This document shows positions 15,604 to 20,369 of a stretch of DNA of 64,000 bases, piece after piece; position 1 is the first letter of the stretch, and the number at the start of each line of letters is the position of its first letter. The notes below the pieces were generated by a model. It ran no database searches and was not told where the DNA came from. It saw only the letters and a program-made list of their open reading frames with translations. A program made the position numbers and the translations under genes. The stretch spans positions 1 through 64,000 of the forward strand of contig VGVH01000004.1 of assembly GCA_016874095.1 (NCBI GenBank). Direction: 5' to 3'. The DNA comes from Gammaproteobacteria bacterium. Its GTDB lineage: Bacteria; Pseudomonadota; Gammaproteobacteria; Steroidobacterales; GCA-2729495.

Positions 15604-16551
15604 TCAGGGCGCCGGCGCGACGGTCTCGCCGCCGTCGGTGGCAACATCATCCATGGCAGGTGCCGCGCCTTCGCCCACGCCAGCTGACGAGCCGGGCTTG
15701 CGAAAGCGGAGCGTCGCGCGATCGCTCTCGCCGACTGCGAGGTACTTCTCCCGATCCTTGTCGCCGAGAGCCAGCGTCGGCGGCAGGGTCCACACTCCTT
15801 CAGGGTGATCGCTGGTGTCGCGCGGATTGGCATTGATCTCGGACGTCGCCTCGAGCACGAAGCCAGCGCGCTCGGCCAGCCCCGTGACGTAGTCCTGGCG
15901 GACGTAACCGGATTCGGCCCTGGGATCCTGCGGCTTGTCGCCAGCCGCGCGGTGCTCCTCGACGCCCAGCACGCCGCCGGGCTTCAGCGCGCGATACATC
16001 GCGGCGAACACGGCTTCCGCCTGGCCGGCATCCATCCAGTTGTGCACGTTGCGGAAAGTCACGACCATGTCGGCGGTGCCGGCGGGTACGAATTCCAGCT
16101 TCTCCGGCGGCGAAAGCACTGCCATCTCGACCTTGCCGTAAAGCGCGGGGTGCGCAGCCAGTTTCTCCGCGTACACCTTCAGGTTGCGCTGCACGTAATC
16201 GTCCTGCGTGGCGGGATCCCAGTGGGCTGCGATGTAGCGGCCCTTGTCGTGCAGATAAGGCGCAAGAATCTCGGTGAACCAGCCTGCACTCGGCCAGATT
16301 TCGACGACGGTCATGTCAGGCCGGATACCGAAGAACTCCAGCGTCTCCTGCGGGTGTCGGTATACGTCGCGCGCGCGGTTTTCTGCCGAGCGATGTTCGC
16401 CGGCAATGGCGGTGGCGAGCGAGCTCTCCTCGATTACCGGAGGCGGCGGTGGCGCTTCATCGCCCGGGGTCGGCGGCGGTGGCTCAGTGCCGCAGCCAGC
16501 GAGGGCCGCGAGCAGTGCGCTCGCCGCGAGGTAACGAATCTCGTTCGCCAT
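15604..16551 (-). CDS. predicted class I SAM-dependent methyltransferase, putative lipoprotein
   Basis: Lipobox LAALAGCGTE; VVEIWPSAGWFTEILAPYL; NVHNWMD; matches my knowledge of exported COG4798-type methyltransferases. Confidence 0.8.
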   Translation of the reverse strand: MANEIRYLAASALLAALAGCGTEPPPPTPGDEAPPPPPVIEESSLATAIAGEHRSAENRARDVYRHPQETLEFFGIRPDMTVVEIWPSAGWFTEILAPYLHDKGRYIAAHWDPATQDDYVQRNLKVYAEKLAAHPALYGKVEMAVLSPPEKLEFVPAGTADMVVTFRNVHNWMDAGQAEAVFAAMYRALKPGGVLGVEEHRAAGDKPQDPRAESGYVRQDYVTGLAERAGFVLEATSEINANPRDTSDHPEGVWTLPPTLALGDKDREKYLAVGESDRATLRFRKPGSSAGVGEGAAPAMDDVATDGGETVAPAP

Positions 16552-16629: not shown

Positions 16630-17280
16630 TCAGCCTGTCGCGGCCATCTGGATGTGACTCAGCTTGGCTGGCTGCGGCCAGCGATAGAACTGGCGCAGTT
16701 CCCGCAGCATGCCGGCGCGCGGGCGGCCTGCCGGATAGCGGCAGCTCAAGCTGCGGCAGTAGCGGGCGGCTAGCCGGTTGGCATCTGCGTACCGGTCCCT
16801 TGCAGCAGGCGCCAGGGCCGGGTCGAAACCGGGGGCGTCGAACAGCTGGTCGAGCAGCCGGCGGCGAGCGGCCTCGGAGTCGGCGCCCGGCAGCGAACCG
16901 GCAGTGACGAACTTGTCGATCTCCGCCTGCAGCTCGAGCTCGAGGAGGGTAACGGCCTTGTCGCGGGCCGCATTCCAGGCGACGTAATTGAAGTGGCTCA
17001 CGCCTTCGAGAGCGAGCAACAGGTCAGCTGTGCTGCCAGAGGAGAATCCGGCGGACAACTGCAGCGGCGCGAGTCGTCCGACGACCGCGGGGTCGAGGAA
17101 CAAGGCAAGCCCAAGCTCGCCGTCCCTCTCCTCCACGAAGAGTTGCTCCCCACAGAACTCGCGCGAGTCATCACTGTCGAGACCGAGCCAGTTGCGATCG
17201 GTGATCAGGTAGTCGCGGACGTCCTCCGCGAGGTCGAGGTCGTAGATACCGAGCAGAAGCTGCTGCAGGTCGCGGATCAT
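16630..17280 (-). CDS. conserved-looking hypothetical protein, downstream of sheath-like gene
   Basis: ORF 16630..17331, ATG at 17280: MIRDLQQLLLGIYDLDLAEDVRDYLITDRNWLG...; 7 bp from the next gene. Confidence 0.65.
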   Translation of the reverse strand: MIRDLQQLLLGIYDLDLAEDVRDYLITDRNWLGLDSDDSREFCGEQLFVEERDGELGLALFLDPAVVGRLAPLQLSAGFSSGSTADLLLALEGVSHFNYVAWNAARDKAVTLLELELQAEIDKFVTAGSLPGADSEAARRRLLDQLFDAPGFDPALAPAARDRYADANRLAARYCRSLSCRYPAGRPRAGMLRELRQFYRWPQPAKLSHIQMAATG

Positions 17281-17287
17281 GACCGCT

Positions 17288-17923
17288 TCAGTGCTCGTAG
17301 CGGCGAATGCCCTGCTGCGTGGGGGTGACACCGGCTGCCATCAGCAGCCGGCTCGCGCGCGGACTGCCGGTCAGCAGCCACTGCTCGTAAACGCGCAGGA
17401 GATCGGCGTCCCGGCCGCTCGCGATCGCACGCACCTCGTTCAGCACATCGACAAGACCCGGAAATTTCGCGGCCAGTTCGGCGAAGACCTCAGCCAGCGC
17501 GGCGGCGCGGATGCTGGAGCGACTGTCCTGGGCCAGGGAGCGATAGGCGCCGCCGCCCATGCCGATGTAGTAGTCGATGCCGACGGCCCGGTCGCGCAAG
17601 CTGTCGGCGAAGAAGCCCGCCGTGAACAGCGCAAAATCGCCCAGCCGCTGCAGAAGGAACAGGCGCTCTTGGCGACTCTCGGTGGCAACGGCCTCGGCGA
17701 GCATCAGCGCCAGCGGGCGGTTCCTGCCGCTACCGGTCGACTCGTGTTCCACGGCATCGCTGCGCGCGTGCAGGGTGAGCAGATTCACGACGTAGCGCGA
17801 AGTTTCGCGCTCGATGGTTACGTGATTGGCAGCCAAAGCCGCGTCGAGGGAGTCGCGGAAGAACCCCTCGAGACTCGCCACAGGGACGAGTGTCCTGCGA
17901 TCGGGTGATACGGACTCTGCCAC
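17288..17923 (-). CDS. hypothetical protein, part of the sheath-like gene cluster
   Basis: 211 aa ORF, close spacing to 16630..17280; no family recognised. Confidence 0.65.
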   Translation of the reverse strand: MAESVSPDRRTLVPVASLEGFFRDSLDAALAANHVTIERETSRYVVNLLTLHARSDAVEHESTGSGRNRPLALMLAEAVATESRQERLFLLQRLGDFALFTAGFFADSLRDRAVGIDYYIGMGGGAYRSLAQDSRSSIRAAALAEVFAELAAKFPGLVDVLNEVRAIASGRDADLLRVYEQWLLTGSPRASRLLMAAGVTPTQQGIRRYEH

Positions 17924-18054
17924 TGCGAGTTCCCGCCGGATCGATCCTAGGCTTTCCCGAATCTAGCGGCATACGGGTGTTGCGGCCGTGGACGACTTCA
18001 CGGGTCGGCCAGGACTTGCACTCGCGGTGATCGAGTGCTGGCGACAGGAAGAAG

Positions 18055-19581
18055 TCAGCCCGCCAGTGCGAGACCCGGCTTCCAGGTGATCTCGCGCGAA
18101 AGGCTCATGCCTGGTGCGTGTGACACTTCGAATGCGACGAATTCGCCCGGCCGGTTGAGGGCGAGCCCGACCGTGATCGTGAGCAGCAGCTCACTCCCGG
18201 CCGCGCGTCTTTCGCAGCGCACGAAAAACGCTTCACGCGGCTCCGCTCCAGCAAGCAACCCCCTCGCGCGCAAGGCGGCCAGGTACTGCTGCAACTGGTC
18301 CTGCACCTCGGAGTCCGCCTGGTCACCGCCCGGCTCGAAGGCCGCCCAACGTGTGTAGCGGAGGACACCGCCCATCACGATCAGCGCTATGCGCCGCTGC
18401 CGCAGGCTGTTCCAGGGCGTCGGCCCGCCCGATCGGGCCATCGTCGTCAGTCCGGCCAGCTCGATCTTCCCCGCGCTGCGCACCAGCGTATTGACGCCGA
18501 GACGCCCGAGCTGGTGCACATCGCCTTCCTCCAGCGCGAGTACCGGCCTGCTGCGGCCCAGTGACAGCAGCGGACGCTTCACGGTGGCAAGGTCCCATGC
18601 CGCGAGTGCGCCCGCGATTGCCCCGGCCGCGCTCAGGTGGCCGCGGGGATCGCCGTGCGGCGGGCTTTCGAGCGCCGGAAAATAGGTAATCGCGTTCGGG
18701 CTGGTGAAATCGCGTTTGCGCTGCACGCGCACCGCATCGTCGACCTCGCCCCAGCTCCCGGGCGGATCGAGCAGCAGCAGCGCAGATCGCTCGCGGCAGT
18801 AACCGTCCGCCGCGAACAGCGCGACCGGCCCCAGCGTCGCGCCGGTCGCGCCAGGCACAAGCGTGACGAAATCGACCCAGGGCACCTGTTCCAGCGCGAA
18901 GAGACCGGTACTCTCCTCCCGCGAACCGATCAGGTCGTAGTCCGTCGGTGCGTTGTCTCCCTGCCAGTCCCAGCGGCCGTAGACGTAGTTCACGACGTTA
19001 CCGGAACCGACGGTACGGGTCGGTCGCTCGGCCGGAAGGGGTCCGGCGAGCCGCACCAGACCGGAACGCTCGAGAACAGTACCGATGAACTCCGCATGGC
19101 CCGGCTGGAGGCTCAAGCCCTGGTAGACCTCCTGCTCCTCGACGAGCGGTTGCGACGGGGAGCGACAGCGATGGATAACCAGGTTGAATCGCAGCCGGTC
19201 AGCAGACGCCGTTCCGTCATGATCGACCGAAGCGCGTAGGTGCTCGAGGGGGCCCGGATTACGCGCCTCGAGTTTCAGGTCGCCGCACAGACCCGGCAGC
19301 GTAATCTGGTTGCAGCGCGCGGAGCGGCTGACGCGCACGACGACAGCCTCCCTGCCGCCATTCTCGAAATACTGGTACAGCAGGAATTCCGTCCGGCTCG
19401 GGTAACCGGGCACGCTGAAACGCGCCAGGAATTCCTCGAGGCTGTGCACAGCGACGGGAATATTCACCGGACCGCGCGGTGCCGGTCCGATGAAGGCAGC
19501 GACGCTCACCCGCTCCACAGGTATGACCTGACCGCGGGGCGGGATCTCGACGACCGAGATGCCGCGACTGACCGGATCCAA
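18055..19581 (-). CDS. phage/contractile tail sheath-like protein
   Basis: N-terminal GISVVEIPPRGQVIPVERVSVAAFIGPAPRGPVNIPVAVHSLEEFLARF...LLYQYFENGGREAVVVRVSRSA and C-terminal AFFVRCERR...LNRPGEFVAFEVSH fit tail sheath proteins at both ends. Confidence 0.85.
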   Translation of the reverse strand: MDPVSRGISVVEIPPRGQVIPVERVSVAAFIGPAPRGPVNIPVAVHSLEEFLARFSVPGYPSRTEFLLYQYFENGGREAVVVRVSRSARCNQITLPGLCGDLKLEARNPGPLEHLRASVDHDGTASADRLRFNLVIHRCRSPSQPLVEEQEVYQGLSLQPGHAEFIGTVLERSGLVRLAGPLPAERPTRTVGSGNVVNYVYGRWDWQGDNAPTDYDLIGSREESTGLFALEQVPWVDFVTLVPGATGATLGPVALFAADGYCRERSALLLLDPPGSWGEVDDAVRVQRKRDFTSPNAITYFPALESPPHGDPRGHLSAAGAIAGALAAWDLATVKRPLLSLGRSRPVLALEEGDVHQLGRLGVNTLVRSAGKIELAGLTTMARSGGPTPWNSLRQRRIALIVMGGVLRYTRWAAFEPGGDQADSEVQDQLQQYLAALRARGLLAGAEPREAFFVRCERRAAGSELLLTITVGLALNRPGEFVAFEVSHAPGMSLSREITWKPGLALAG

Positions 19582-19631: not shown

Positions 19632-20369
19632 TTACTGTCCGGCGCCGGTTGCCTCGGACTTCAGCACGGCGTCTTCGCCCGTGAACCAGTCGTAGGTCAC
19701 GACGTTCTGTACGCGGCGGGCGGCCGCCACGCCGGCAACAGCGTCCTGGCTGCCGGCCATGATCGCGACCGGGAATCCGCACCGAGCGGGTTGTCCGGCC
19801 CCGGCGGCGCCACGGCGGGCAGCGGATCCCCCCGCCTCTGCATGCTCCTTGCGGATCGAGGCTGGTACGCGCCAGACCGGAGCCTTTTTCTTCCGCGTGA
19901 CGCGAGTCCGCCCCAGCGGTGTCGCCCAGCCCTCCCGGCCAATGCTGATCGGGAAAGTATGGACTACGGGCGTCGCACTCTTCTGCACCTTCGGATACCA
20001 GAACAGGCGTTTCGAGACGACGTTGAGGACGATGCCCTCGCGCGGCGGGACGAGTTCCGTACCCTCCCCCGGCAACCAGGGATCGACGCCCGGGTTTGCC
20101 TCGAGCATTTCGTCATAGCCGAGGTCGTAGGCCTGGGCAACGTCTATGAAGGTGTCCTTTTCGCGGCTGCGCATCACCTGCAACTCGCCCACGATGTTGC
20201 CTGCCGCCGGAAGGTCGAACCGCGTCGTCGGAAGCGGCGGCAGCTCGGCCGGCGCTGCCCGCGCTGCCGGCTACTCCGGCAGGAACAGCAGCGAACAGCC
20301 GGTGCAGAGCAAGGTCACCGCAGCCACCGCGGCGATGCGCATGGCGACCTGGTGCCCGATCCGCATCAT
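19632..20369 (-). pseudogene. degenerate LysM / L,D-transpeptidase (ErfK/YbiS-like) lipoprotein gene
   Basis: ATG at 20369 or 20366; lipoprotein signal MRIAAVAAVTLLCTGC; in-frame TAG (plus-strand 20271..20273); then LysM-like and GIVLNVVSKRLFWYP...TFPISIGREGWATPLGRTRVTRK...VWRVPASIRKEHAEAG; frameshift at a 6-nt C run (19828..19833), after which the other frame continues DPLPAVAPPGPDNPLG; no SHGCxR catalytic motif in any of the three minus frames. Confidence 0.8.

Follow-up and report, generated by a model that had tools for sequence, protein, structure and literature searches.

What does a contractile-sheath gene do in a chromosome when the remaining parts of a tail are missing? The question is raised by a stretch of 64,000 nucleotides (the window) from a gammaproteobacterium of the order Steroidobacterales (assembly GCA_016874095.1, contig VGVH01000004.1). 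A preliminary description, made from the sequence of the window, had proposed a sheath gene followed by two genes of no known family, and had considered it a domesticated sheath with a new role, a remnant, or one part of a split-locus injection system. The genes concerned are the following.

15604..16551, minus strand: methyltransferase-like gene, last of the same-strand run (Methyltransf_25, 6e-05, below the curated cut-off)
16630..17280, minus strand: P0003, 216 aa, mostly helical, of no recognised family, second gene of a pair (no Pfam match)
17288..17923, minus strand: P0002, 211 aa, of no recognised family, first gene of the pair (no notable Pfam, NCBIfam or PHROG match)
18055..19581, minus strand: P0001, orphan (tube-less) contractile-sheath protein, 508 aa, TTG start (PHROG, PDB, AlphaFold2, Foldseek)
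19632..20360 (upstream limit approximate), minus strand: broken LysM/YkuD L,D-transpeptidase gene, directly upstream of the sheath gene (tblastn, YkuD match)

The sheath protein

The three open reading frames lie where the preliminary description had placed them, on the same strand and with products of 508, 211 and 216 aa, and the translation of P0001 is free of stops. Its sheath identity, proposed from terminal motifs, was borne out by both sequence and structure comparisons. Search of PHROG profiles returned phrog_23 (tail sheath, 2e-17, residues 3-446), and among PDB sequences P0001 matched sheaths of the Streptomyces contractile injection system (CIS; 8bky, 7.8e-20; 8bl4, 5.6e-19) and of a haloarchaeal CIS (9ezm, 9.2e-14). 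Pfam and NCBIfam models, the Pfam sheath models included, did not match P0001 itself; PF17482, the Pfam sheath C-terminal domain, is matched by 25 of 50 P0001 homologues. The AlphaFold2 model, built from an alignment of 50 homologues, has a pLDDT of 88.2 and a pTM of 0.88. When it was compared with the PDB by Foldseek, the top match was the contracted sheath of H. borinquense (9ezm_A, 7e-24, 507 columns); sheaths of phages, eCIS and pyocins ranked next. The structure prediction that had been proposed as a check thus returns a sheath fold over the whole chain. P0001 is a full-length contractile tail sheath protein.

Its nearest sequence relatives are eCIS sheaths. These share the full-length fold, at about 510-530 aa, and include the Streptomyces (8bky/8bl4) and haloarchaeal (9ezm) proteins, Alg2 of AlgoCIS, and sheaths from ten loci elsewhere in the class (L100-L109). 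Sheaths of R-pyocins/tailocins and phages, recovered by Foldseek with the P0001 model, are encoded beside tube and baseplate genes in tail operons, unlike P0001.

Prophage origin of P0001 was rejected, since it had no match in the phage records searched. A link of the three proteins to defence was likewise rejected, as PADLOC matched none of them. In a promoter and terminator scan, matches were no more frequent than expected by chance.

Inheritance of the gene and absence of tail parts

Searching with the P0001 protein detected the sheath in 53 of 60 near relatives, in no case with internal stops. All 36 sampled genomes of the window's own family carry it, each in a single copy. Across the order, a sheath profile matched 150 of 197 genomes at E <= 1e-10, in 50 of 60 genera; subtraction of weak matches of another type (G041, G044, G051, G054, G465) leaves about 145 carriers, a count that is assigned by score and includes three partial copies. 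Distribution follows the families of the order: the orphan sheath is near universal in seven of them (f1, f2, f4, f7, f10, f11, f12); f13, f14, f15 and most of f16 lack it.

To place these proteins among other sheaths, a maximum-likelihood tree of 49 sequences was constructed. All but one of the 33 orphan rows form a single clade (support 99/95), whose neighbours are eCIS sheaths from elsewhere in the class. The latter are encoded in the compact operons L100-L109 together with tube, T4_baseplate, Pvc16 and AAA+ genes; the L100 tube matches PF06841 at 1.2e-47. The remaining row is a second lone sheath (L038, contig C3 of G056) with no recognised tail genes in its neighbourhood. Because it groups with eCIS sheaths, orphaning of the sheath may have happened more than once. 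A very divergent sheath-like gene of 510 aa (L048, in G051) also has no recognised tail genes within the surrounding 20 kb; both L038 and L048 were kept apart from the orphan clade.

The sheath gene is under purifying selection. Nei-Gojobori dN/dS of the 14 closest gene pairs ranges from 0.05 to 0.31, and the value near 1 that had been named as evidence against the proposal was not seen.

The preliminary description had found no tube or baseplate gene in the 64 kb, and for the families searched this now extends to the whole assembly. Genome-wide profile searches detected neither gp19 tube (PF06841), gp25 (PF04965), Baseplate_J (PF04865) nor Pvc16 cap (PF14065), by which a contractile injection system would be recognised, nor Hcp (PF05638), the tube of type VI secretion. 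No complete tail or eCIS, which had been named as another finding that would count against the proposal, was therefore detected elsewhere in the genome by these five families. They are equally unmatched in two single-contig genomes (G007 and G008). AAA+ ATPases were left out of the absence tests because the family is not specific. The profiles used would miss a tube whose family is unrelated or has diverged very far.

Possible roles of a sheath without a tube

Order-wide conservation, purifying selection, monophyly and the lack of tube and baseplate genes support the first of the three readings in the preliminary description. P0001 is probably a domesticated contractile sheath that does not inject and is inherited vertically as a chromosomal gene, which suggests that a sheath protein has been adopted for a different cellular job. 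An eCIS-type sheath gene would have parted from its tube, baseplate and cap genes in an ancestor of most families of the order, and would since have been passed on vertically, under purifying selection, as an ordinary chromosomal gene. Injector function would have been lost, since a tube for it to drive and a baseplate from which assembly could start are both lacking.

Comparison with eCIS sheaths reveals what has changed in the protein. Several motifs that are near universal in eCIS are lost in the orphan clade (the N-terminal PGVYIEE, RGVWKAPAG, the acidic residue 403 and the TQxD stretch). Others have been fixed anew, namely Q150, T190 and DYD-L/I-IGS at 215-220. Core glycines, the arginine pair 396-397 and W412 are common to both groups. 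With some motifs lost, others fixed and the core shared, the turnover fits a changed, still constrained function rather than decay.

How such a protein would serve the cell is a more tentative matter. In AlgoCIS, a "handshake" that is conserved interlocks the sheath subunits, and domain I touches the tube through an attachment helix (PMC8894135). T4 gp18 made recombinantly has a tendency to assemble into polysheaths (PMC9230969). By analogy, copies of the orphan sheath might join by their N- and C-terminal segments and self-assemble in the cytoplasm as a hollow or ring-shaped homopolymer, which the cell would use structurally or as a scaffold. We regard a cytoplasmic tube or ring of this kind, made of sheath only, free of tube, baseplate and cap, and serving as a cellular structure, as a possibility somewhat short of even. 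Polysheaths of T4 gp18 and others likewise consist of sheath protein without a tube. They are by-products of a complete phage, whereas the orphan sheath is conserved alone, with no tube family found in the window's genome, and its polymer is a prediction.

In other sheaths the terminal segments lock subunits together; their sequence is altered in the orphan sheath, whose C-terminus extends for about 25 residues after position 487, compared with 9 in eCIS. Since these segments are changed and the C-terminus is longer, the protein could instead be monomeric or form another oligomer. Such alterations, together with the new conserved patch DYD-L/I-IGS, would suit recruitment of the sheath fold as a monomeric or small-oligomeric adaptor for binding or regulation that no longer polymerises. 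We consider this unlikely, as a binding module would hardly seem to need all that the order has conserved, namely the core of the fold and the two terminal segments.

The sheath might also surround a non-homologous filament or cargo in place of the tube and still contract, which would make it a new kind of contractile machine. The full fold is indeed kept and best resembles a contracted sheath, the arginine pair 396-397 is conserved in orphan and eCIS groups alike, and a helix that would be tube-facing by analogy is not clearly degraded in a charge comparison. No gene was found to adjoin the sheath in all families, however, and no baseplate or cap homologue is at hand to set length or provide anchoring. 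This makes a replaced tube distinctly improbable.

Parts of an injection system could in principle be encoded elsewhere in the genome, as the preliminary description had allowed. Some members of the order do have an eCIS: loci L046 (in G044) and L047 (in G042) each contain two sheath and two tube genes. In addition, Baseplate_J matches occur in two relatives (G015 and G030), Pvc16 cap in 2 of 60, and Hcp (PF05638) in 5 of 60, where the match in G014 sits in an 837-aa frame. Complete eCIS loci are nevertheless sporadic in the order, in contrast to the orphan sheath, which is vertically kept in most of it. The eCIS sheaths of G042 and G044 are their own and fall outside the orphan clade. In G042 the system lies on a contig other than that of the orphan sheath, and the searches used it as their positive control. 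The PF06841 tube was detected in only 7 of the 197 genomes, among them just four sheath carriers (G042, G494, G515, G058), so that about 141 of 145 carriers are devoid of a gp19-type tube. Together with the five families unmatched in the window's genome, in G007 and in G008, this leaves a split-locus injection system unsupported and very unlikely.

The tube match in G058 is a mere 81-aa frame in decaying eCIS debris. That locus (L125, on contig C56) contains broken pieces of an AAA+ ATPase, a short tube-like fragment and adjoining transposase-like genes.

Neighbouring genes and meaning of the lone sheath

The two genes downstream of the sheath form a pair, P0003 starting 7 nt after P0002. As had been claimed, they are of no recognised family: Pfam, NCBIfam, PHROG and PADLOC gave no convincing match to either. 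P0002 has an invariant C-terminal histidine. The AlphaFold2 model of P0003 is helical and confident (pLDDT 87), with no PDB fold matching at E<=0.001.

The preliminary description had asked whether the three genes co-occur in relatives. They do so, in the same order, in most genomes sampled from the window's family, to which the position of the pair downstream of the sheath is confined; elsewhere pair and sheath go separate ways. P0002 homologues are present in 140 and P0003 homologues in 38 of 369 genomes of the class, the former mostly and the latter almost entirely without the orphan sheath. Conversely, the sheath is found with no pair beside it in six genomes (G006, G012, G016, G023, G030, G034), one of which, G012, encodes neither P0002 nor P0003 anywhere. 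In G042 the two genes are on contigs other than that of the sheath, and in G059 they are about 16 kb away from it. Joint action of sheath, P0002 and P0003 as one system, to which their common strand and conserved order within the family would point, is thus highly improbable, and the trio was rejected as a system. Judged by its distribution, the pair is an independent, widespread, unannotated gammaproteobacterial one, a neighbour of the sheath and not its obligate partner.

In two genomes (G198 and G398; loci L113 and L114) the pair lies near groESL. Proteins of about 190-200 aa that form a more distant P0002 family occur in more than one third of the sampled genomes of the class, sometimes near glyQS (L117, L118).

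Directly upstream of the sheath, most family members have a full-length transpeptidase gene, adjacent or one gene away, at a distance of 31-966 bp. In the window, tblastn with a full-length relative (in L056) reveals that the gene has a stop inside the frame, a small deletion and a frameshift, and that the portion with the catalytic segment is gone; the YkuD match drops from 8.5e-25 in the relative to 1.2e-06 in the remnant. As the assembly is a draft, these lesions may be assembly errors. Since the sheath is intact beside the broken gene, it seems independent of the enzyme in the window's genome. An obligate link to the transpeptidase was rejected: the association is common in the order, but the gene is broken in the window, and next to the sheath of G016, G023 and G025 none was detected. 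The sheath is therefore retained both where the transpeptidase is broken and where P0002 and P0003 are absent.

In family members devoid of the pair, the methyltransferase-like gene follows directly 3' of the sheath. Conserved neighbours elsewhere are a PLP enzyme, a hydantoinase/oxoprolinase and an ECF sigma factor; they vary by family and provide no functional lead.

That P0001 is a decaying remnant of a lost eCIS or prophage tail is barely conceivable: such debris does occur in the order (L125 in G058), but about 145 carriers (three of them partial), low dN/dS, the lack of internal stops in 53 relatives, the full fold, and one clade over many families with motifs of its own all oppose it, save for a very recent loss in the window's lineage alone.

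Domestication of the sheath would have a precedent in encapsulins, a phage capsid fold domesticated by cells, whose cargo proteins are known. There too a single phage structural protein is retained for a cellular job, although the fold differs from that of a sheath and no cargo came to light for the orphan sheath. No conserved lone sheath was reported in the open-access literature searched, and novelty is to that extent provisional.

If the sheath-only polymer is real, it would be the tail counterpart of encapsulins and a kind of prokaryotic filament undescribed in the open-access literature searched. The accepted view of a contractile sheath is that of a motor which propels a tube. Retention of one throughout an order, with neither tube nor baseplate, would mean that the fold has a stand-alone use and can be selected by itself. 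Since carriers span about 50 genera, any culturable member could serve to probe its role. For annotation, the case cautions against inferring a prophage or an injection system from a "phage tail sheath" gene that stands alone.
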